Part shown: piece by piece, positions 12,577-23,169 of the stretch
Layout: the number at the start of each line of letters is the position of its first letter
Numbering within the stretch: position 1 is the first letter of the stretch
DNA from: a virus
Direction: 5' to 3' (one strand)
Length of the DNA: 26,689 nucleotides
Virus record (IMG/VR): IMGVR_UViG_3300025151_000247
Location: 1 to 26,689 of that record
Notes under the pieces: generated by a model
The model's input: only the letters and a program-made list of their open reading frames with translations
Databases searched by the model: none
Told to the model about the DNA's origin: nothing
Translations under genes and position numbers: made by a program

Positions 12577-14243
12577 CCTACACCGTTCCTTCTCCCACCA
12601 ACACTTCGTATGCCGCACCAAGTCAAGGGCGTAGCGATACGGTGCATGACGAAATTGGCGCGCTTGCAGAAGAGCCTACATTTGTTGACAACGCCGTTCA
12701 CCATGTCATTTACAAACCAGCGCAGTCAAACAGTTTGACCGTTCAAGTGGACAAACCAAATCAAAGCGACTTTCAAAGCACACACCCGCGCCAATACCGT
12801 TTGAGTGAGGAAGCCACGGGTGTTCGTTTGTCTCACACCTCTCACGAAGACTCACCGTTTTTTGACGGTCAACAACTTTCGCCAACATCCAAGCGCCCCA
12901 TGCTTCTTTACGATGTGAAAGAACCTGTCAATCGTTTGAGGACTGATGAGATAACAACGACATCAAAAGGTGTTCGCATCGCGCTCAACAACATGAAAGG
13001 GCGCAGTTTGGCTGACATGCAGATGGGTGAGACAACGCATGTTTACGGTGGACAGTCGGTGAGTGTCGGTTTGCGAAGCACCGACTTGGTTGAGAAGTTG
13101 TTTGACAAAGCCTTGCATGGTTTGAACAGCGTATCAACCAAAGGAACAAGCACGCTCTTCGTAGCCAAAAACTTTCAAGCACTCGTCGTGCCGAGCGCCA
13201 TTCGCTCTGTTGCGCGCCACGACCATTTCATCATTTATTACGACCGCTTCGGTAACTTCACTTACGCACCGAAAGTGTTCAAGACCAAAGACCGAAAGTT
13301 GGGCGTTCAGCGCGGCGTTGGCGAGACGAGCATTGACCCCATTATTGATGTTGCAAACCGCGTGACGGTTAAAGGAAAGGGCATTGCAGTCAACGATGTT
13401 ATTAGCGCGCAGGTGGACGATGCTGAATCACAGAAGCGGCTTGGTTCAATCAAGCAGATGGTGGTCTTTGACCCCACGGCAAACAACGAATCATCGGCGC
13501 GCAAATCAGCAAGTCAAGCACTACGCTTGAACAGAAAGGCGCAGGGTGCGCTCATGTCAAACCGACACACTTTGTCATGGGACTTGGAGCCTGCTGACAT
13601 TGTTCAATACGACTCGCCTATCGGCAATGTGCAACAGGCAATCATTGAGGTCAACCACAATTCAAGCGGCGAATCAAACTTTCAATTGCTTTCTTACGAG
13701 GCTGGACTTGAAGCCGTATTGACAGGGTTCGGGGATGGTGACGATGCGGACTCCGAAGAGGATGAGGTTGACCGCTCTTTCCAAATTGTCAAAGTGAACA
13801 AAAGCGGCATCGGCATCGGCAACTTGCGCGTCACAGGAGTGCTTACAGTCAAGCCTGTCATCGCTACGCTGGCGCGAACCAAGACCAGCGCAGGCAACGC
13901 CTTTCCCGATATTCACGCTGGCGTTCTGTTGGGACACAGAGACGCGGGCTACGGTGCGGGTAGGTCAGCGCTTGGGTTTGGTGTGACGCGACGCATCAAC
14001 GGCACTCATGCAGGTAGCACCATCACCGTGACCAGCACCGATGGATTCGCCGATAGTGGACACCTTATCCTTGATGACAAGTCCTTCGTTTCGTATAGCG
14101 GCAAGACTGCAACCACATTCACGGGTGTTACCTTGATAAGCGGAGCCTCAATAACCTCACCCATAGCGGAGATGCGAATGCTCCGACCGCGCGCACACGA
14201 AATGCGAACAACAAAGGGACGACGAATACGGAGGAAGATTTGA
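12573..14243 (+). CDS. Baseplate hub / tail-tip-like structural protein
   Basis: A 556-aa protein whose ATG overlaps the stop of the giant gene (ATGA); GGAGGGG sits about six bases before the start. The middle (roughly residues 245-375) runs from a beta-rich stretch into a helix with many Ala and Ser, then a W-D-L-E-P-A-D-I-V-Q-Y phrase. That order resembles the end of phage hub and late-control-D-like proteins, where a helix precedes a 'pGD.v.v' strand. An acidic linker (GDGDDADSEEDE, about residues 386-398) separates this from a C-terminal beta domain with a GFADSGHLILDD...SYSGK phrase seen in tail-type modules. The end is very basic (GRRIRRKI). The position between the giant protein and the fibre fits a tail-tip component. 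Assignment is by pattern only; another virion role is possible. Confidence 0.6.
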   Translation: MTYTVPSPTNTSYAAPSQGRSDTVHDEIGALAEEPTFVDNAVHHVIYKPAQSNSLTVQVDKPNQSDFQSTHPRQYRLSEEATGVRLSHTSHEDSPFFDGQQLSPTSKRPMLLYDVKEPVNRLRTDEITTTSKGVRIALNNMKGRSLADMQMGETTHVYGGQSVSVGLRSTDLVEKLFDKALHGLNSVSTKGTSTLFVAKNFQALVVPSAIRSVARHDHFIIYYDRFGNFTYAPKVFKTKDRKLGVQRGVGETSIDPIIDVANRVTVKGKGIAVNDVISAQVDDAESQKRLGSIKQMVVFDPTANNESSARKSASQALRLNRKAQGALMSNRHTLSWDLEPADIVQYDSPIGNVQQAIIEVNHNSSGESNFQLLSYEAGLEAVLTGFGDGDDADSEEDEVDRSFQIVKVNKSGIGIGNLRVTGVLTVKPVIATLARTKTSAGNAFPDIHAGVLLGHRDAGYGAGRSALGFGVTRRINGTHAGSTITVTSTDGFADSGHLILDDKSFVSYSGKTATTFTGVTLISGASITSPIAEMRMLRPRAHEMRTTKGRRIRRKI

Positions 14244-14245
14244 TG
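14230..14245 (+). repeat. Gene-junction repeat, copy 1 (ribosome site plus TGATG)
   Basis: GGAGGAAGATTTGATG holds the last codons of the hub-like gene (R-K-I-stop), a strong ribosome site and the start of the next gene. The same 16 bases occur at 14661-14676. Confidence 0.75.
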
Positions 14246-14674
14246 GACGCGTTTGAGGAAGCATGGGTGTTGCTCAAAGGCAATCCCGATGCGCGCGTTC
14301 AAGCAGTAAATCCGACAGGAACACATTTCTCGGATAGAGATTTTGCCGCCCACCCTGCGGCTATTGGCGCGGCTAACAGACAAGTGTATGCGACGATGGA
14401 AAACAGGCAAAAATTGATTGATTCGGGCATGTCTCCGAACAACCCAAGACTCATGGTAGCGGCTCGCAAAAAAGTGACGCCTCAACAAAGACGAGAAATG
14501 GAAAACACCTCTTTTGATTTGAAATACAAAAACCCTAATTTTATCAGCAGGGTTAGAGGAAGAGGGAGTGCGCCGAAAACCAAAGAAGAAAAGGCAATTC
14601 TCATTCAAGAAGCAGAAGACGCAAAAGCCCGAAGAAGAGAGGCTGGCTTCAACAAGCGCGGGAGGAAGATTTGA
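14243..14674 (+). CDS. Small basic protein with N-terminal LLK module
   Basis: I choose the ATG at 14243 over the TTG at 14240: it forms a TGATG overlap with the upstream stop and lies seven bases after GGAGGA. That gives 143 aa. The N-terminus, MDAFEEAWVLLKGNPDARV, is one copy of a motif found in three other genes here. A region with FSDRDFAAHP follows, similar to the segment after the motif in the 18337 gene (M-F-Y-D-N-L-A-H-Q) and the 20293 gene (T-P-T-D-F-A-A). The C-terminal half is Lys/Arg-rich and probably helical or disordered, ending in RGRKI. There are no catalytic motifs or cysteine pairs. I do not recognise a family. The place in the late operon suggests a virion or assembly role, but this is inference. 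Confidence 0.75.
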   Translation: MDAFEEAWVLLKGNPDARVQAVNPTGTHFSDRDFAAHPAAIGAANRQVYATMENRQKLIDSGMSPNNPRLMVAARKKVTPQQRREMENTSFDLKYKNPNFISRVRGRGSAPKTKEEKAILIQEAEDAKARRREAGFNKRGRKI

Positions 14675-14676
14675 TG
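14661..14676 (+). repeat. Gene-junction repeat, copy 2 (ribosome site plus TGATG)
   Basis: An exact second copy of GGAGGAAGATTTGATG, ending the 143-aa gene (R-K-I-stop) and starting the 115-aa gene. The two copies bracket the 143-aa gene. Confidence 0.75.
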
Positions 14677-15021
14677 CCGATGCTGAACGCTGTCAAGAGA
14701 CGCTTGGTTGAACACCTTGCTACGCTCATCAATGAGTTGCACATTGGAAGCGACGGAACAGTCGCGACCTCCGACGATGGTGGAGCGCGAACGCTGGCGC
14801 GAGTTGTGCCGCGCGTGCAAATCATTGACGACACCAGCCTGCTCGTTGAGGGAACCTTCAACGCATCGTATGTGTTCGCCAAGCCGATTCAAGAGGTTTA
14901 CATTCAATACAAAGACGCATCCACAGGTGAGTTCATTCCCGTGTATCGCGCGGACATTAACTCCTTCACCAAAGACGCACAGAATGAAGTGCGCTTCTCA
15001 TTCATTTTGGAGGTGGCTTGA
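14674..15021 (+). CDS. Small tail/baseplate-like protein
   Basis: A 115-aa protein starting at the ATG at 14674, which overlaps the upstream stop as TGATG and follows a GGAGGA ribosome site; the TTG at 14671 is less likely. The N-terminus (MLNAVKRRLVEHLATLI) is an amphipathic helix. It is followed by a GSDGT...D-D-G-G-A-R-T loop and then alternating strands with AKPIQEVYIQYKD and FSFILEV. This layout, a helix with 'x-x-L-I' then a small beta domain ending in a hydrophobic strand, resembles small phage virion proteins encoded beside tail fibres. I cannot name a family. The neighbours (hub-like protein upstream, fibre downstream) support a baseplate or tail accessory role. Confidence 0.7.
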   Translation: MPMLNAVKRRLVEHLATLINELHIGSDGTVATSDDGGARTLARVVPRVQIIDDTSLLVEGTFNASYVFAKPIQEVYIQYKDASTGEFIPVYRADINSFTKDAQNEVRFSFILEVA

Positions 15022-15578
15022 TGAGCGACGACCCTCTTGACCAAGAGTTCGTATGCCCTGCATGCGATGGCGCAGGTGGATGGGATGAAGGCGGAGCGGA
15101 CGGCGTTATGCGCGGTAGCCCCGACGACTTCCTCGGTTGTCAAAACTGCATGGGTAGAGGCTCAATTGAACCGACTCATCACCCTGGCAAAGACGATGTA
15201 GGCGCGCGAAGCATGGTTACTTTTGACACTCGCGAACCAACACATGTTGAACAATACGATGTGGAAAACGCAATGCCGTTTGGGAACATAGCGGTGGTGG
15301 GCGGTGATGGGAAGATAAGGGACCCTTACAGGTCGGGGTTTTCGCGCGACTCACCAATGAAACAAACAAGAGTTCCTATCGTATCCGATGAAGAAATTGC
15401 AAACACAGACCCCGCCCTTCGCCACAGATTGCCGTCTGTTTACATGCGCGAGTTGAATGGGCAACCAACGAATAGTGGGCTAAACATAACAGGCAACCCC
15501 GAAGAAGGCGGAACTCCTTTCTTCACAAGAGGTAATCCAATGGACATGGCATGGAGGTTGTTGAAACATGACGAGTGA
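15021..15578 (+). CDS. DnaJ-type zinc-finger protein with C-terminal LLK motif
   Basis: A 185-aa protein. The ATG at 15021 overlaps the previous stop (TGATG), with GGAGG eight bases upstream. The N-terminus carries C12-P-A-C15-D-G-A-G-G and C40-Q-N-C43-M-G-R-G, a four-cysteine site spaced like one zinc site of the DnaJ CxxCxGxG domain. The middle (about 50-165) is Pro/Asp/Asn-rich with no recognisable fold. The last 16 residues, RGNPMDMAWRLLKHDE, are a clear copy of the LLK motif, here as a C-terminal tag. It overlaps the tail-fibre gene by 11 bases, so the motif codons also carry that gene's ribosome site (GGAGG at 15553-15557). A zinc-binding adaptor or assembly role is plausible. It is not a full J-protein, because there is no J domain or HPD. 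Confidence 0.75.
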   Translation: MSDDPLDQEFVCPACDGAGGWDEGGADGVMRGSPDDFLGCQNCMGRGSIEPTHHPGKDDVGARSMVTFDTREPTHVEQYDVENAMPFGNIAVVGGDGKIRDPYRSGFSRDSPMKQTRVPIVSDEEIANTDPALRHRLPSVYMRELNGQPTNSGLNITGNPEEGGTPFFTRGNPMDMAWRLLKHDE

Positions 15579-17991
15579 TAACATTGCTGGACACACCGCC
15601 GCGCAGAACACGCTCGGCGAAGACGGACTACGAGACGGCGATTCGTTGTCGCCCACGACTTTAACCAATTTAATTCAAGGCGTGCAGGGCAACGGAGTTC
15701 TGCGTTATCAAGACGGAGCCTACGGCTCCACGCGCAACGAGACAAATAGCGGCAACCAGCCAGCATCAATGGTTCGCGCTTCCGCAAGCACGCTGACGGT
15801 AAGCGGCGGCTTCGTCGTGCTTGACGGTGCGGTTTACGAGTTCGGTAGCGGCGTAGGTAACACCATCACGCTTGACCTCAACAACGGTTCTCACGGAACA
15901 GGCGCGCTCGCTCTGTCAGCCAATGAGGAAGCCATTTACACCATCTATGTTGCACCAAGCGGCGGCAACAACAAAGTCCACTACGAGGGCGGAAGCCCTG
16001 TTGACACGACCACAGGACTTTACCCATCTGCGTCTAACCAATACCTCATTGACTATGACACAGGGGCGACGCAAGACAACATGAAAGCCGTTGTCCTTGC
16101 TCATGTCCGAGTGCAATATGTCGCAAGCGGCGGAGGGGCGAAGAACCTCAACATTACAGAAATCAACGATAAGCGCGTATTTGTTGGTGGTGCGGCTGAT
16201 TACCGCGTGCCTCTTTCTGTCGGCACAATCACCAGCGGTGAAATTGCTGACGGTGGTGCGGAAGGTGTGAACAACATTGCGCACCTCAACGCAGTTCACA
16301 ATGAGAATGGTGACCTCGCCGTCACCGACACCATCAACGCACATTGGGTGAGCCATCCGCGCTACGGTGCGTTCAATCAATCTCCACCATCGGCCAGCGA
16401 CGCTGGCTACGGGCAAGGTCCATCACGCGGTGCAGACCGTGGGGGTAGCCATGCGGCTGACTCGTTTTACTTCGCAGGGCGCAACAACGAGCAGACGGGA
16501 CACTACTCGGTGCGACTCCAAGGAATGGGTGTTGATGCAACCAGCACCGCGCTAACAACAAACGGCACTTGGGTGTTGACGGCGGAAGGTGATTCGTTCC
16601 TCATGCTCTCACCAAACGGCGGCGTGACCATTACGCTCAACCCCGAACGAGACGGAAGCGCGAATTACAAGTTCCCCGAAGGCCACATCATTGAGGTGTG
16701 CAACGACGGTGCGGGGGACATTGTGTTTGACAACCAAACTTCGCCGAGTGGGTTGAATGCTACGCTCTCATCGGGACACCGCGCTACATTCATTTACGAA
16801 GGAACGGTGTGGGTTCGGTGCGATTATCAGTCAGCCATCATCGCCAACGCCCCTGCAATTGAAATCAGCGGCGGTGCGCCAGCCTTTGCGACAGGTATTA
16901 CGCAAGGTGAGATGCTTACACTTCTCGGCGTTGAGGCTGGCGCAACGGCTGACCAGTCAAACGCTGAAATACGCGCGGCTGTTGAAGCGGCTACCGATTC
17001 CAATGTGTTCACCGATGCTGACCACACCAAGTTGAACGGAATTGAAGCGAGCGCGGATGTCACCGATGCGACCAATGTGAACGCCGCGGGTGCAATCATG
17101 AATAGCGATGTCGCAACGAAAGGCCAAATCATCGTAGGCGATGGTTCGGGCGACCCGACGATATTGAGTGTTGGAACCAACGGCCATGTCTTGACGGCTG
17201 ATAGCGCGGAAGCATCGGGTGTCAAGTGGGCGGCGGCGGCGGCAGGTTATACCGATTCGCAAGCCATTGCCGCAGTTGAGGGGGAGGCTACGCTTGACCT
17301 AACAGGCGATGTGACCATAGCGAACAAGAAGTTCATCATTGATACCACAACGCTTGTAGTCAACGCGCCTTCCTACACCGACAAAGTGGGTATCGGAACA
17401 GCAACCCCCGCCAACCCGCTCCATGTGAAACAGACTGCGACGACAAGCGGAGATGCGGTTTATACCGCAAGGTTTCAGTCAGCGGAAGGCAATGTAGGTA
17501 TGACGCGCTACGGTGGTATCCACATCAACAACGACAACAGTTCACCTATGGACGGTGCAGATTGGGATACCGACCGCTGGCAAATGAGCCAGCGAGACAC
17601 AAATCAATTTGACATCGCGCATGGAACACCTACGCACACAAATATCCCTGCTTCCGACACAAAATTGCGAGTCAAAACCGATGGTAAAGTCGGTATCAAC
17701 TTGGGTGCAACCGACCCTACTGTTGAACTTGATGTAAGCGGAAGCGGAAAGTTCAGTTCCAATTTGGAGATTGACGGCGCGCTTAACCACGATGGTTCTA
17801 CTGTCGGTTTTTACGGGACTACCCCCGCATCAAAGACAACGGTGGCTGCGCTTGGCGCGCAGGTGGTAAACCCCGATGCACCGTCAAATCCAACTGCCGC
17901 CGAACATGCTTCAACACAAGCCGCAATAGACGCAGTTCAAGCAAAGTTGGACGCACTTATCACAGCGTTGAGCAATTTGGGGTTGGTTTGA
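15568..17991 (+). CDS. Tail fibre / receptor-binding protein
   Basis: An 807-aa protein starting at ATG 15568, eleven bases inside the previous gene, after GGAGG. The N-terminal part (about 1-200), with L-T-V-S-G-G-F-V-V-L-D-G-A-V-Y-E, is like the attachment region of marine phage fibres. The middle (about 340-420) is a repetitive beta stretch. Near residue 479 it has VFTDADHTKLNGIE, and near residue 608 VGIGTATPANPLHVKQ; both phrases are common in the shafts of long tail fibres. The last 40 residues form a heptad-like helix (AAIDAVQAKLDALITALSNL) that could trimerise the tip. No S74-type chaperone domain is visible. It should bind the host surface. The fibre class is secure by pattern; the receptor is unknown. 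Confidence 0.85.
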   Translation: MTSDNIAGHTAAQNTLGEDGLRDGDSLSPTTLTNLIQGVQGNGVLRYQDGAYGSTRNETNSGNQPASMVRASASTLTVSGGFVVLDGAVYEFGSGVGNTITLDLNNGSHGTGALALSANEEAIYTIYVAPSGGNNKVHYEGGSPVDTTTGLYPSASNQYLIDYDTGATQDNMKAVVLAHVRVQYVASGGGAKNLNITEINDKRVFVGGAADYRVPLSVGTITSGEIADGGAEGVNNIAHLNAVHNENGDLAVTDTINAHWVSHPRYGAFNQSPPSASDAGYGQGPSRGADRGGSHAADSFYFAGRNNEQTGHYSVRLQGMGVDATSTALTTNGTWVLTAEGDSFLMLSPNGGVTITLNPERDGSANYKFPEGHIIEVCNDGAGDIVFDNQTSPSGLNATLSSGHRATFIYEGTVWVRCDYQSAIIANAPAIEISGGAPAFATGITQGEMLTLLGVEAGATADQSNAEIRAAVEAATDSNVFTDADHTKLNGIEASADVTDATNVNAAGAIMNSDVATKGQIIVGDGSGDPTILSVGTNGHVLTADSAEASGVKWAAAAAGYTDSQAIAAVEGEATLDLTGDVTIANKKFIIDTTTLVVNAPSYTDKVGIGTATPANPLHVKQTATTSGDAVYTARFQSAEGNVGMTRYGGIHINNDNSSPMDGADWDTDRWQMSQRDTNQFDIAHGTPTHTNIPASDTKLRVKTDGKVGINLGATDPTVELDVSGSGKFSSNLEIDGALNHDGSTVGFYGTTPASKTTVAALGAQVVNPDAPSNPTAAEHASTQAAIDAVQAKLDALITALSNLGLV

Positions 17992-18146
17992 TGAGTCTAT
18001 GGGTTTACTTTTGGATTGCGTTTGCTTTGGGTTTCATCACGATTTGGTTTGGGGTTCCCGACGATGTTGACACCTTCATCATTTTTGAGAGCGATGAAGA
18101 GTTGCAACAGGCATGTTGGGATGGACTACGAAAGGGGGTTCAATGA
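17991..18146 (+). CDS. 51-aa single-pass membrane protein
   Basis: A short ORF whose ATG overlaps the fibre stop as TGATG and whose TGA overlaps the next start as ATGA. It fills the only gap between two real genes, with matching spacing. The N-terminus is one hydrophobic segment (residues 4-22, WVYFWIAFALGFITIWFGV), followed by an acidic region (DDVD, ESDEE) and a short basic end. The small size, single membrane helix and place after the fibre gene would fit a holin-like or envelope-associated lysis protein, but nothing in the sequence proves lysis. The ribosome site (GGGGTTGG) is weak, so it may depend on coupling to the fibre gene. Confidence 0.65.
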   Translation: MSLWVYFWIAFALGFITIWFGVPDDVDTFIIFESDEELQQACWDGLRKGVQ

Positions 18147-18340
18147 TGGGTAAACTGAAAGCGCGCTTATCACAAAAGTGTCCAAGTTGTTTTGAGACTG
18201 TTCTCGCAAAGCGGCTGGAAGGGCGATATGTTAATGACCGTGATACGCGTGTCCTTGTTTGGGAGTGTCCACTTTGTTCGCGACTATGGCGAGAATCGCG
18301 ACTTGAGAAACCGAAGTTCAAAGAACATGGGGTGGTATGA
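18143..18340 (+). CDS. 65-aa zinc-ribbon protein
   Basis: Starts at the ATG at 18143 (ATGA overlap, with GGGGG four bases upstream); an ATG at 18146 is also possible. An upstream in-frame ATG at 18113 would lie inside the membrane-protein gene and lacks a ribosome site. The protein has two CPxC knuckles, C13-P-S-C16 and C42-P-L-C45, 26 residues apart, typical of a small zinc ribbon. The flanks are basic (KLKARLSQK; RESRLEKPKFK). Zinc ribbons of this size often bind nucleic acid or a protein partner; here the context is late virion genes. It overlaps the next gene by up to four bases. The specific role is unknown. Confidence 0.7.
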   Translation: MMGKLKARLSQKCPSCFETVLAKRLEGRYVNDRDTRVLVWECPLCSRLWRESRLEKPKFKEHGVV

Positions 18341-20283
18341 TGGCGAAAGGAGAAAACCTTGAGAAGCCGAAGAAAAAAGGCGGCATGGTGATTGTTATCG
18401 GTATGGGTGCTAAACCCAAAAACATGAAGAAATCGTATGGTCGCGGAAGCGATGATGCAAAACTCGCCAATCGCGCGAAGACGCTTCGCAGATTCAAAAG
18501 CGGTCGTAGCGAGATTGACGACATTCTTGAGAGGCGCAAAATTGACCCCGACGAGTTTCATGGTGAGTTCTTCCAAAGAACCAATATGAGTTTTGAAGAC
18601 TACCTTGAGAGCGGTAAAACTGATGTTGATGTTCAATCCATGATTGACGAGATGGCCGAGCGTAAACACGGTGAGCGGCGAGATGAGGGTATGCGAGCAG
18701 GGAGGGCAAGGTCAATCCGTCAAGGTCTTCTTAATACTGATAGATTCAAAGGGGCGCTACAAGCGCGCGGCATTGATGAAGACACTTGGGTTAGTCATGT
18801 TAAAGACATGTCCGACGATGAATTGAATGATAACACCTTTAACAGATTGCTTGATTCTTTACAGTCCGCCCCTACTACGGAAGAACAATCTCCCGAAAGT
18901 AGGCGCGCACAACTGCGCGATATGGGGTTGGGGTTTCACGAAATTGAAGAGCAATTGGAACACGACCGATTGACCGACGAAGACGAAGCATACCGACGAA
19001 GAAACGCAAACCGTGGATACAAGGGGAAGCAAACCGTTGACGCCAATGACGAAGAAGCACCCTCCGAAGAAGAAAAGTTCACGAGATTATTGCAGATATT
19101 TGAAGCGCGCGGTCATGAAAGACCCGAAGAAGCGGCATTTAATGCATTGATGGGTGGAGGTGTAGCAACAGGTGGTAAAACTTCCGCCGAGCGTGAAGCG
19201 GCGAAGACGAAGAGAAGTGCGACAGACCCACGGCAGGGTGGCGATGTTTACTTTCAACCGTCAACTCAAGACACCCTTCCATTCGCAGGTAGCGGACAAC
19301 GCGACCAAGGATATTACGGCGGAAGCAAGCAAGCACCCAAAGGTTCTGTTGAGTCCGAATACTACGGATTCCGTGGTGCGCAACCTGTTCGTGGTCAACC
19401 GAAAGAAGACGAAGAGGCTGACTTGGATGCGGTGCAAGACCTCATGATGACGGGCGAGCCGATGAATGTCATGGACGCGGCGTGGGCTTTGTTGAAGGGC
19501 AACCGCGATATGCGCGATACAGAAGGTAAACCCATTGAACATACGAGTCCGATGTTTTACGATAACCTCGCTCATCAAATCGCACAAGGTGAGCAAAACC
19601 CACAATCCCCAATGGTTGGGCGCGAAGATGATGAAAGCGCGGCAGACATCATGGCCGTGATGCAAGGGAGGAAACCCGACGCCGCACCGCATTCTTTGCC
19701 TAAACGCTCAACTGTTCGCCGAGTCCTTCAGCAAATGAACCCAAAATCGCGTCCTCCTTCGTTTAAACAAAGAGCGGAACTTGGCGCAGTCAACAGGAGA
19801 AAATTAAGAGGACACCAGCAAGAAGCGGCAGAAGAAACGCGCAACACGATGGAGTTCGGTAACGAAGACGATTCGCCGTCGCCCAACTACGGCATACGAC
19901 GGATGCCCCGACCCGAAGAAGAAATGTTGAAAGGCAATCCCGACATGACAGACATGAGTGGTGCTTCGGTTCCTCCCGCGGCGATGAATTATGCTCAACA
20001 GGCTCGCGCGCTTGAAGACTCATTGGAATGGCGAGGGGGGAAAAGGCGAGGTGTTGCCGCTCCCGAAATGATGGCTGACGAAAATGCTTCGCGTTTTGCT
20101 GATAAATTGAGCAAACCACGATTTGCACGAAAGAAGGTTGGTGGAGAAACAATGCAAGAACATCACGACTTTGCTCGCGAGCGTTCTAAGCGCGACACGG
20201 CAGGCTACATGGATGAAGCAGAAGGGCATAATCAGTTTGGACCCGATGTAAACATCAAGAGAATGCCTCGCCCCGCTCCTTGA
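18337..20283 (+). CDS. Large charged, probably disordered protein with internal LLK module
   Basis: A 648-aa protein. ATGs at 18337 and 18340 both fit; GGGGTGG at 18329-18335 is better spaced for 18340. The N-terminus is Lys-rich with a short hydrophobic stretch (GMVIVIGMG, about 15-23). Residues 40-350 are highly charged, probably helical, with many D/E/R/K. An LLK module is centred at residues 373-392 (GEPMNVMDAAWALLKGNRDM), followed by a segment similar to the 143-aa protein's N-terminal half. A second, shorter copy is MLKGNPDM at 530-537. RRMPRP (about 521-526) and KRMPRP (about 641-646) are a near repeat. The protein lacks cysteine pairs and enzyme motifs. It looks like a modular linker, scaffold or internal virion protein. 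The family is not recognised. Confidence 0.75.
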   Translation: MMAKGENLEKPKKKGGMVIVIGMGAKPKNMKKSYGRGSDDAKLANRAKTLRRFKSGRSEIDDILERRKIDPDEFHGEFFQRTNMSFEDYLESGKTDVDVQSMIDEMAERKHGERRDEGMRAGRARSIRQGLLNTDRFKGALQARGIDEDTWVSHVKDMSDDELNDNTFNRLLDSLQSAPTTEEQSPESRRAQLRDMGLGFHEIEEQLEHDRLTDEDEAYRRRNANRGYKGKQTVDANDEEAPSEEEKFTRLLQIFEARGHERPEEAAFNALMGGGVATGGKTSAEREAAKTKRSATDPRQGGDVYFQPSTQDTLPFAGSGQRDQGYYGGSKQAPKGSVESEYYGFRGAQPVRGQPKEDEEADLDAVQDLMMTGEPMNVMDAAWALLKGNRDMRDTEGKPIEHTSPMFYDNLAHQIAQGEQNPQSPMVGREDDESAADIMAVMQGRKPDAAPHSLPKRSTVRRVLQQMNPKSRPPSFKQRAELGAVNRRKLRGHQQEAAEETRNTMEFGNEDDSPSPNYGIRRMPRPEEEMLKGNPDMTDMSGASVPPAAMNYAQQARALEDSLEWRGGKRRGVAAPEMMADENASRFADKLSKPRFARKKVGGETMQEHHDFARERSKRDTAGYMDEAEGHNQFGPDVNIKRMPRPAP

Positions 20284-20292
20284 GGTGCGCGC

Positions 20293-21564
20293 ATGAGCGA
20301 CCTATGGTGGATGCTTCTCAAGTATCAAACGAGTTTACCTCAGTTTGACCCGAACCTTGACTACACCACAGGATACGCAGGCGTGCCGCCTGTGCAAATG
20401 GCGAGCGCACAACACCCTCGGCACTACAAAGAATACCTGCAAGGAAAATACCCTTCCCAATTTTGGGCTTTTCAAGGCAAGGATGCATCGGTTCAACACG
20501 GCGCTTCCGCGCACAGAAGCGATGATGAGGGGACATTTCTTGATGTAGGTGTTCGCTCGTGGGAGCCGTTAGGGAGTAAACAAAAGGTTGGTCGCATGGC
20601 TACTCCCGACGAGATGCCCGATAAGCGCAACATTGTCGTTCGTCGCCGAAGTGCCGCTGACCATCCGCGCCACATACGCAACATAGACAAAGACATTCGC
20701 CGCCGCAATGCGAAGCGTGAACGACGGTTGAAGTTGAGGCAACGGGCAACGGGCGGTCTTTCGCCTATGGACATGTTGCGTCGTCGTGATTTGAAAATGC
20801 TCAAAGAAGCCAAGTCTCCAAAGGCGCTGGCGAACAAACGCAAATACGAAACCCAATACGAGTCCTCACCCGCGCGCAAGAAATACCGCAGAGAGTTGGA
20901 AAGAGAGCGTCGCAAGCGTGGCGTTGCAGGCAAGGGCGGTAAGGACATGAGCCACACTAAGAGGGGGACAATCGTTCCCGAAGACCCGCACGCCAACAGA
21001 GCGCGCTCTCATCCATCCGTAGGCTCAACGCTGAAAATGACCATCACTAAAGAAGCGCCTCTTGGTTGCATTCGGTGCGGAAAGCGCTCTAAGTTGACAC
21101 GAATTAACGACGAAGGCGGCTACAACATTTGCACAGATTGCTACATGGGCATGATATTGAGTGCGGGGAGGGAGTTGAGTCAACAACGGCAGGCTCAACA
21201 GGCTCACGACAGTCGCTACGACACCATGATGTATCACGGTGAGCCGATGGACATAGCCATGCGCTTGCTCAAAGAACAGAAGAAACTCTTCGTTCAAGGA
21301 CAGAAGACTCTTGACGGGCAACCTGCCTTCACACCGACTGACTTTGCGGCGGAGGAACGACGAAGGCAAGCCGCCCTAAAGGAAGCCAAGGCGAAGGAAC
21401 AACGGATGATTGCAGTTCAACAGCATGAAGCCATGACCAACGAAGAGCGCAGGGCAGACCATGAAGCAAAGAGGCTCCAACAAAAACAAGCGCGCGAAGC
21501 ACAGCAACGAAAGACCGCTGAAGGCAACGCTACTCTTCCTCAGTTTCAGCCGAGTTCGGAATAG
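20293..21564 (+). CDS. Basic coiled-coil protein with zinc knuckle and two LLK motifs
   Basis: A 423-aa protein nine bases after the previous stop, with GAGGTG six bases before ATG. The N-terminus, MSDLWWMLLKYQ, is a variant of the LLK motif. Residues about 115-225 are strongly Arg/Lys-rich and could bind nucleic acid. A zinc site follows: C259-x2-C262 and C280-x2-C283. The full motif HGEPMDIAMRLLKEQ is at about 315-329, then T-P-T-D-F-A-A, then a Gln/Lys/Glu-rich coiled coil to the end. LPQF occurs near both ends (T-S-L-P-Q-F about 13-18; T-L-P-Q-F-Q near the C-terminus). The last 35 bases overlap the end of an antisense gene. It is the last gene of the + strand block. A DNA-associated virion or assembly role is a guess. 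Confidence 0.75.
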   Translation: MSDLWWMLLKYQTSLPQFDPNLDYTTGYAGVPPVQMASAQHPRHYKEYLQGKYPSQFWAFQGKDASVQHGASAHRSDDEGTFLDVGVRSWEPLGSKQKVGRMATPDEMPDKRNIVVRRRSAADHPRHIRNIDKDIRRRNAKRERRLKLRQRATGGLSPMDMLRRRDLKMLKEAKSPKALANKRKYETQYESSPARKKYRRELERERRKRGVAGKGGKDMSHTKRGTIVPEDPHANRARSHPSVGSTLKMTITKEAPLGCIRCGKRSKLTRINDEGGYNICTDCYMGMILSAGRELSQQRQAQQAHDSRYDTMMYHGEPMDIAMRLLKEQKKLFVQGQKTLDGQPAFTPTDFAAEERRRQAALKEAKAKEQRMIAVQQHEAMTNEERRADHEAKRLQQKQAREAQQRKTAEGNATLPQFQPSSE

Positions 21565-21664
21565 GGATGTTGTTCATTTTCTTCACGACCAAGTTCACGA
21601 CTTGATAACCAATCTCAATCGTCACCAGCATGACGACAATCCAAAGAAAGGCGCTGAGAATCAT
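21530..21664 (-). CDS. 44-aa membrane protein coupled to the chaperonin gene
   Basis: On the - strand an ATG at 21664 overlaps the chaperonin stop (ATGA) and runs 44 codons to TAG at 21530. The N-terminal half is one hydrophobic helix (residues 2-27: ILSAFLWIVVMLVTIEIGYQ, then VVNLVV). KK and then a short acidic tail ending AETEEE follow. The last 35 bases lie antisense to the end of the 20293 gene. The coupling, clean membrane helix and charged tail argue that it is real rather than chance. The function is unknown; it could be a small viral membrane protein. An ORF this small can arise by chance, so confidence is moderate. Confidence 0.6.
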   Translation of the reverse strand: MILSAFLWIVVMLVTIEIGYQVVNLVVKKMNNIPIPNSAETEEE

Positions 21665-23169
21665 TGACCACGCCTCGCGATGATGTCATCAATGCGAAGG
21701 ATGGAGCAAGCAACCTCGGTGGCCGACTTGATGATTTGCTCAACAAGCGCGGCAGGTTCCCAAACATTGTGTTCACGCATATCCACGATAGAGCCTTCGC
21801 CTGTAAAGTCAATGTAAAGCCCCATGTTGCTTGTCACCGAACGCAACTCCATGACCACATCAAGCGCATCCATACCAGCGTTGCTGGCGATAGCGGCAGG
21901 GATGATTTCAAGAGCATCAGCAAACGCCTCCATGCACATGCGCTCACGGGCTGATGATTGACGCTCATGTGTCGCATGGTTGCGAACGGCCATCGCCAAT
22001 TTAGAGAGGACTGCGCCGCCGCCAGGGTAAAGTCGCTTATCGTTCAAGTAAAGGCAGGCAACACCAAGAGCATCGTCAAACGCGCGCTCGTATTCATCCA
22101 GCGTTTGACGAGTTGCACCTCTCACAATCATGGTGATGGTGTCGCTCTCCTTTGCTTCAACAGAAACATAGTCAAGGTCGCCAATGCGGATGGGTTTGAT
22201 TGAACCTTCAATGCGTGTGTCCTCTTCGGGAACATCGGTGATGCGGTGATAAATGGGGACACCTGTAATACGCGCAATGCTATCAATGTCGCTTTGTTGC
22301 ACACGGCTTACAACACCAATGTTTTGAGCGTCAAGGTATTTCGCAACGGCTTCATGAACTCCATCACGGACAATGAGAATGTCAGTCATCTCTGCTATGG
22401 CTTTGCTGATGTTGCTCAAAATCTCCATCTCTTGATGACGGATTGCTTCAAGTTGCGCAGGGTCGTTGATTTGCATTTGCACATCCTCGTAGTTGAAACC
22501 ATCAAGGCCACCGTCAAGCATTAAAACGCGAGGGTCCTCCTTGCCTGCGAAGTCGGGGTTGGCGAAAGTCTTGTTGAGAACGAGGCCACTATGGATGTAG
22601 GAGTCGCCCATGTCACCACCCGCTTGAGTGAGTGTGCGAACACGGTCAAGGTTTCCATCCACGGTAAGTGCGGCGTTCTCAACGAGTTGAGCGGCAAACC
22701 CAAGAGCAGACTCGGATGCTTTGCCGCGCAAAGCAGTTGCGGCCACCAAGTCAACGCGAATGTCCTCTTCGGGAAGCGGCATGTCTTCAAGAGCAATCTT
22801 GGATGCTTTGTTGTAAGCGCGCACGATTGTTTGCGGGTGGATGCCTCGCATGAGCAATCCCTCGCTCAAGGCCAGCATTTGTCCAGCCAACACAACCACG
22901 CTGGTCGTGCCGTCTTTACACACTTCTTCTTGCGTTTGACTTGCTTGAACCATCATTTGCGCGCCTGGGTGCGCAGTCTCAAGTTCTCGCAAAATCGTGA
23001 TACCGTCGTTGGTCACGATTGTTTCTCCGCGTTCGTCAACGAGCATTTTATCCATTCCCGCGGGGCCAAGCGTTGACCTCACGGTTTCGGCCACTTGCAC
23101 CGCGGCACGAATGTTGCTCATTTGGGCTTCTCTTCCTGTTTTTCTTTCTTCGGTCATTGGGGTCACCAT
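21661..23169 (-). CDS. Group II chaperonin (thermosome subunit), virus-type
   Basis: A 502-aa member of the thermosome/CCT family, which folds proteins in an ATP-driven double ring closed by a built-in lid. Visible landmarks: LGPAGMDKML (34-43), TNDG (53-56), KDGTT (85-89), the Lys after the L-R-G (K150), a helical-protrusion region (about 222-262), D377 before PGGGA (382-386), EAFADALEIIP (414-424), NAGMDALDVV (430-439) and LRIDDII (491-497). The Asp residues used for ATP binding and hydrolysis appear kept, but the usual G-D-G-T-T is K-D-G-T-T. It is shorter than the roughly 540-550 aa of cellular subunits: the N-terminus starts close to the first conserved helix, and the Gly-rich C-terminal tail is gone. 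The ATG at 23169 overlaps the exonuclease gene; an ATG at 23157 has a better ribosome site (GGTGA). It probably folds viral proteins, alone or mixed with host subunits. Confidence 0.95.
   Translation of the reverse strand: MVTPMTEERKTGREAQMSNIRAAVQVAETVRSTLGPAGMDKMLVDERGETIVTNDGITILRELETAHPGAQMMVQASQTQEEVCKDGTTSVVVLAGQMLALSEGLLMRGIHPQTIVRAYNKASKIALEDMPLPEEDIRVDLVAATALRGKASESALGFAAQLVENAALTVDGNLDRVRTLTQAGGDMGDSYIHSGLVLNKTFANPDFAGKEDPRVLMLDGGLDGFNYEDVQMQINDPAQLEAIRHQEMEILSNISKAIAEMTDILIVRDGVHEAVAKYLDAQNIGVVSRVQQSDIDSIARITGVPIYHRITDVPEEDTRIEGSIKPIRIGDLDYVSVEAKESDTITMIVRGATRQTLDEYERAFDDALGVACLYLNDKRLYPGGGAVLSKLAMAVRNHATHERQSSARERMCMEAFADALEIIPAAIASNAGMDALDVVMELRSVTSNMGLYIDFTGEGSIVDMREHNVWEPAALVEQIIKSATEVACSILRIDDIIARRGQ

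Follow-up and report, generated by a model that had tools for sequence, protein, structure and literature searches.

A 12-residue peptide, hereafter the tag, recurs at the start, at the end and inside proteins of one lineage of marine archaeal tailed viruses, where it is limited to the strand that carries the virion genes. Four neighboring genes of the IMG/VR virus record IMGVR_UViG_3300025151_000247 encode it; we refer to this record, a 26,689-bp fragment with a thermosome gene and part of both genome modules, as the window. With moderate confidence, we propose that the tag is a cargo-docking peptide that would load late virion-module proteins into the viral head for injection into the host. 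An earlier note on this DNA had suggested a docking tag for one common partner, a suggestion well supported by the sharp bounds of the motif, its N-terminal, C-terminal and internal sites, the roughly 194 clusters of N-terminally tagged proteins that bear it, and its confinement to one lineage and to the virion-gene strand.

The internal form of the tag reads [GS]EPM[DE][IL]A[FMW][RQ]LLK. Its N-terminal counterpart reads M-[TNS]-[AP]-F-[DE]-x-A-W-x-L-L-K, with M-x-[AP]-F-[DE]-x-A-W-x-L-L-K also in use, including in the window; MTAFDTAWSLLK and SEPMDIAMRLLK are examples of tag peptides. Conservation covers 12 positions and is sharply bounded, ending at the K of LLK, and we propose that the peptide would form a short, N-capped ([GS]EPMD...) amphipathic helix. 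In 100 dinucleotide-shuffled versions of the window, a degenerate DNA pattern for xPM[DE]hAxxLLK never matched. Scanned over IMG/VR, the same pattern found at least 120 stretches, whose peptides read [GS]EPM[DE][IVLM]A[FMWY]xLLK, with at most four per protein among the matches listed; the N-terminal form was likewise scanned over IMG/VR, and its matches are a lower bound. All tag counts given here cover the related viral contigs that we collected, the IMG/VR part being drawn from among the matches listed; many of these contigs are fragments and some loci overlap, and each count is a number of distinct sequences rather than of independent origins. Genes throughout are the longest open reading frames (ORFs), called without a gene finder.

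The search by profile proposed in the earlier note separated the motif clearly from background: a 12-column profile found 535 copies in 1,592 proteins (465,129 residues), compared with 8 after shuffling of the proteins and 10 after their reversal. Neither random spread of the motif nor a lack of conservation, both of which we looked for, was found. Contigs retrieved with the DNA pattern hold the motif by construction; independent support comes from conserved positions that were left free in the pattern (in 91%, the second residue before P is [GS], and in 97% [RQ] stands before LLK), from the existence of the second form, from the strand bias described below and from a chance-level scan of cellular genomes. 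This last scan, across 84,980 species, gave 10 matches, all filed as bacteria, compared with approximately 8 expected by our estimate from the base content of the pattern, which is about chance level. One of the ten, locus L205 (contig NZMJ01000140.1, filed under a Maricaulis metagenome-assembled genome), has an MTxGMxGRxSDTRxYNPRSES gene, because of which the contig looks misbinned and derived from this virus group.

The tag is spread over proteins that have little else in common. It lies at or near the start of 438 proteins, at offset 0 from the start codon in 313 and at offset 1 in 71, and with the tag masked these proteins fall into 194 clusters, 131 of them single-member. The majority consensus of 148 dissimilar N-terminally tagged proteins is MxAFDxAWxxLK, a form shared by MDAFEEAWVLLK of the gene at 14243 in the window. 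Complete ORFs hold 245 internal and 32 C-terminal copies, and two loci (L150 and L156) contain runs of consecutive genes that each start with the tag.

The viruses that bear the tag share a set of virion genes. The capsid protein family phrog_24667, to which the HVTV-1 capsid protein belongs, is found in 45 of 49 long contigs (29 of 33 tag-related records and 16 of 16 further ones). All 32 long tag-bearing records encode an S78 protease, and 30 encode Cpn60/TCP-1, which is on the strand opposite the capsid gene wherever both were found. By contrast, tags are on the capsid-gene strand in 95 of 95 N-terminal and 73 of 75 internal cases, mostly 20–40 kb upstream of the capsid gene on the circularized map. 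In the 43.7-kb record G040, tagged genes come just after those for the protease and capsid protein and around the head-tail genes; the 108.65-kb record G010 encodes PolB, Cpn60/TCP-1 and a SNF2 helicase. Compared with published magrovirus descriptions (PMC10768690, PMC12999244), the long relatives have the magrovirus-type set, consisting of an HVTV-related HK97-fold capsid protein, S78 protease, PolB, thermosome and two opposing modules in 90–110 kb. Magroviruses arrange their replication and virion modules in opposite directions (PMC10768690), and the location of the tags opposite the strand of the replication-half chaperonin matches these two modules. The hosts are probably marine Poseidoniales archaea. 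Seven bacterial-phage records with a phrog_6437 domain, which many tagged proteins also contain, have neither N-terminal nor internal tags, and the Methanofastidiosa virus vir519 has no N-terminal tag. The latter virus, whose capsid protein is related, does encode a tag-like peptide, NPMTATRIAWRLLK, in a 167-residue protein (L215:30170-30670; one profile match), which may be a chance occurrence or a distant relative of the tag.

What the tag is attached to includes predicted enzymes. Approximately 25 N-terminally tagged proteins have a (Y/F)HGT motif right behind the tag, as in MTAFDTAWxLLK-MPYHGT; H16, G17 and G30 are invariant, T18 is nearly so, and the enzyme begins 2–6 residues past the tag. 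This cargo has an ADP-ribosyltransferase fold. A profile of 15 of these proteins matched KptA/Tpt1 and DarT in the PDB (best E 0.004), and the 50 best Foldseek matches of a structural model (predicted local distance difference test [pLDDT] score 76) all belong to the ADP-ribosyltransferase superfamily, with KptA the best (E 4.4e-4); template modeling scores are low, at about 0.4, and the fold class is thus backed while the exact activity is not. Other tagged proteins match models for NUDIX, SLOG (YAcAr), GP88, DnaJ-type zinc, cytosine methylase, LIM and DUF5872, some contain a GNAT-like stretch, and 19 of 119 internally tagged representatives have phrog_6437. The bearers had previously been described as otherwise unrelated, disordered proteins; unrelated they are, but many of those with N-terminal tags are compact enzymes, chiefly of the ADP-ribosyltransferase fold.

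In the mechanism that we propose, late virion-module proteins carrying the tag at the N terminus, at the C terminus or inside, often several times per chain, would bind through it to one conserved procapsid component, which could be the scaffold part of the S78 protease, the capsid protein or another inner-head protein. Tagged proteins would thereby be loaded into the head and then ejected with the DNA into the host, where the cargo (ADP-ribosyltransferase-like and other enzymes, zinc-ribbon proteins and phrog_6437 modules) would act on host functions or defenses. We favor head loading and ejection on the evidence of the strand bias, the siting of tagged genes among those for head and tail, the confinement to one lineage, the enzyme cargo and the likeness to phage T4. 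A broader reading, which we hold more tentatively, is that of a lineage-wide protein-delivery system in which a position-independent, multivalent peptide would bring exchangeable injected effectors into archaeal hosts, with chains of 4–8 tags perhaps serving as inner-body scaffolds.

The closest analogue of the tag is the T4 capsid-targeting sequence, and we propose that the two would have the same role, the tag being position independent and often multivalent. Among T-even phages the internal proteins are diverse, and all that they share is a capsid-targeting sequence (PMC3012670); its first 10 residues suffice in T4, where the ADP-ribosyltransferase Alt is packaged and injected (PMC9026906). 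As with IPI–IPIII and Alt, which share about 10 N-terminal residues, one short peptide stands here on otherwise unrelated late proteins (PMC3012670, PMC9026906, PMC7411985), the 194 clusters having only the tag in common, and both systems have ADP-ribosyltransferase cargo, a prohead protease and an HK97-fold capsid protein. The likeness is one of features, and it is incomplete: although the 438 N-terminally tagged proteins conform to the T4 arrangement, the 245 internal and 32 C-terminal copies do not, and the present system differs further in its several copies per chain, its far larger number of proteins and its archaeal-virus lineage.

Several observations weigh against head loading and injection. 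Unlike in T4, where the prohead protease cuts at a conserved site, we recognized no conserved cleavage site after the tag, with no residues conserved past it. Late expression of the tagged genes in the long viruses, where they lie 20–40 kb upstream of the capsid gene, is something that we infer from strand alone. The portal, protease and capsid protein of G040 lack the tag, which fits a receptor role without showing one. Finally, the cargo gave 139 clusters of 278, compared with 117–134 for the other proteins encoded in these loci; it is thus not the more diverse set, and no arms-race signature is seen.

Other partners would account for parts of this evidence. The docking partner of the tag might instead be a host protein, such as one of the transcription, translation or protein-turnover machinery, so that effectors are gathered on one target late in infection. 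Position-independent amphipathic helices are typical of host-hub motifs, the cargo is effector-like, and absence of the motif from the cellular genomes scanned is expected if the virus alone uses the docking site. Early replication-half genes should then be tagged as well, however, yet the virion-gene strand has 168 of the 170 tags, and the tagged genes of the window and of G040 lie between head and tail genes; we regard host docking as unlikely. Docking on another viral assembly, such as the tail tip, the tape measure or an intracellular virus factory, without packaging into the head, would explain why tagged genes of the type found in the window adjoin baseplate-like and tail-fiber genes, as well as the matches of a few tagged proteins to PHROGs of endolysin, tail lysin and tape measure. 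This too strikes us as improbable, in that relatives of about 100 kb have their tag clusters upstream of the terminase, portal and capsid genes, far from tail genes, and dozens of distinct cargo proteins are hard to fit on a tail.

Two further explanations have very little to recommend them. Recruitment of folding clients to the virus-encoded thermosome would be in keeping with the presence of Cpn60/TCP-1 in nearly all long tag-bearing records and with its position directly after the tagged genes in the window. As sole partner it is disfavored by two tag-bearing records without a Cpn60 match, G049 (92.8 kb, six N-terminal tags) and G007 (96.5 kb), and neither disordered zinc-ribbon proteins nor tags need a chaperonin; we consider such recruitment very unlikely. 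The earlier note had also raised the possibility that the copies are scars of repeated gene fusion, to which functionless remnants of DNA-level recombination may be added. Codon identity among tag copies is 0.66 within one locus, which indicates that some copies spread by local duplication, but it falls to 0.47 between loci. Residues are strict while synonymous codons are free, the contexts are unrelated, the unforced positions are conserved, and in 313 proteins the tag is placed exactly at residue 1. A repeat or scar at the DNA level is disfavored by this codon variation, and we give it scarcely any credence.

Beyond T4, three known systems resemble head loading by a tag in part. In giant phages (SPN3US), N-terminal propeptides of ejection proteins have been proposed to target many injected proteins into the prohead (PMC7411985); they are about 111–130 residues long and cleaved at a T4-like site, whereas the tag has 12 residues. 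Encapsulation peptides of bacterial microcompartments are short amphipathic helices at the N or C terminus that dock into a protein shell (PMC11157265), but their sequence is not fixed and shell and organism differ, in contrast to the strict 12-residue viral consensus found here. HVTV-1, of the Druskaviridae, has a capsid protein with 33% identity and the same portal-protease-capsid gene order, and it is reported to encode an ADP-ribosyltransferase (PMC8651126); it differs in that its genome contains no copy of the tag. Within the literature searched, subscription papers and preprints being outside its scope, we found no earlier account of this motif and, for archaeal viruses, none of a packaging tag or of the broader delivery system outlined above.

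To our knowledge, most magrovirus genes are unannotated and no magrovirus has been cultured. A 12-residue signature would assign a function class to hundreds of orphan proteins by sequence alone and predict the injected effectors of these viruses, and it would offer a compact label by which foreign proteins could be brought into the shell of an archaeal virus. Magroviruses are reported to rank perhaps third in abundance among the groups of marine planktonic viruses (PMC10160649).

In the window itself (Table 1), all peptides that the earlier note had listed in four neighboring genes are present in those genes. Two of its six copies are weak: MLKGNPD is a half copy, probably a degenerate remnant of the tag, and MSDLWWMLLK is borderline. 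Shuffled sequence (123,316 residues) scored at most 5.5 bits with the strict profile.

Table 1. Tags, tagged genes and flanking genes in the window
Feature	Position	Strand	Details
Open-ended ORF, at least 4,191 aa	1-12576	+	Runs off the left end of the contig
Tagged protein, 143 aa	14243-14671	+	No family match
N-terminal tag MDAFEEAWVLLK	14243-14278	+	Residues 1-12; profile 27.1 bits
185-aa protein	15021-15575	+	CxxCxGxG-like zinc motif; C-terminal tag
C-terminal tag GNPMDMAWRLLK	15531-15566	+	Residues 171-182 of 185; profile 34.8 bits
648-aa protein	18337-20280	+	No family match; internal tag
Internal tag GEPMNVMDAAWALLK	19453-19497	+	Residues 373-387; 12.7 bits (strict profile)
MLKGNPD	19924-19944	+	Second half of motif only; under profile threshold
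423-aa protein	20293-21561	+	N-terminal MSDLWWMLLK, phrog_6437 domain (174-239), CxxC zinc ribbon (~258-285), internal tag, basic coiled tail
Degenerate N-terminal tag SDLWWMLLK	20296-20322	+	9.8 bits; borderline, close to noise
Internal tag GEPMDIAMRLLK	21238-21273	+	Residues 316-327; 44.6 bits (strict profile)
Thermosome-type chaperonin	21664-23169	−	Directly after tagged genes

Relatives retain most of these copies. Close relatives of the window (L009 and L011) encode a small tagged ADP-ribosyltransferase-like protein in the interval that holds the 14243 gene in the window, between genes for 556-residue and approximately 808-residue proteins. The single relative found for the 15021 protein (L071, 74% identical) keeps the C-terminal tag as GNPMEIAWRLLK. 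The internal tag of the 18337 protein is kept in L003, L006-L012 and L015, with variants of the form NVMDxAWALLK. Among relatives of the 20293 protein, the MSxLWW start is retained and most have the internal tag GEPMDIAMRLLK; none was found among annotated genomes in the phage collection INPHARED. The D-F-A-A or D-N-L-A-H segment said to follow the motif is conserved inside this family but is not part of the module, as D[FN][AL]A occurs 8–40 residues downstream in 4 of 138 strict copies. An AlphaFold2 (AF2) model of the 20293 protein (mean pLDDT 53.8) has helices at residues 3–13 and 319–336, the second starting just past GEP, which at this low confidence lends weak support to a helical tag.

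The phrog_6437 domain of the 20293 protein (window 20812-21009) reads SPxAxxHKLxYDxxYESSPxRxKYRxELxRERRKRG...DMSHT...NRAR. In bacterial-phage loci phrog_6437 is a small protein of unassigned function; here it is fused behind tags in many archaeal-virus proteins. Within the 20293 family (L011:9983-10984 and L015:3005-4696), the region between this domain and the tag alternates between a zinc ribbon and a GNAT-like stretch, a swap that we read as a sign of modular cargo exchange.

The plus strand of the window also encodes a baseplate-like protein of 556 residues and a tail-fiber-like protein of 807 residues, and the product of the open-ended ORF is probably a giant late protein of the tail or virion. 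From 21.66 kb, genes are on the minus strand, among them those for the chaperonin and an ERCC4-type nuclease. A second shared motif, MSW[DE][DE][IV]Hx[LM]A, occurs in L200 (3874-4221 and 10459-11865), with 20 matches in other loci. It is located at the extreme C terminus of the S78 protease (approximately 450–480 residues) and of a separate protein of 109–120 residues encoded near the portal gene, and is probably a scaffold or capsid-binding helix.

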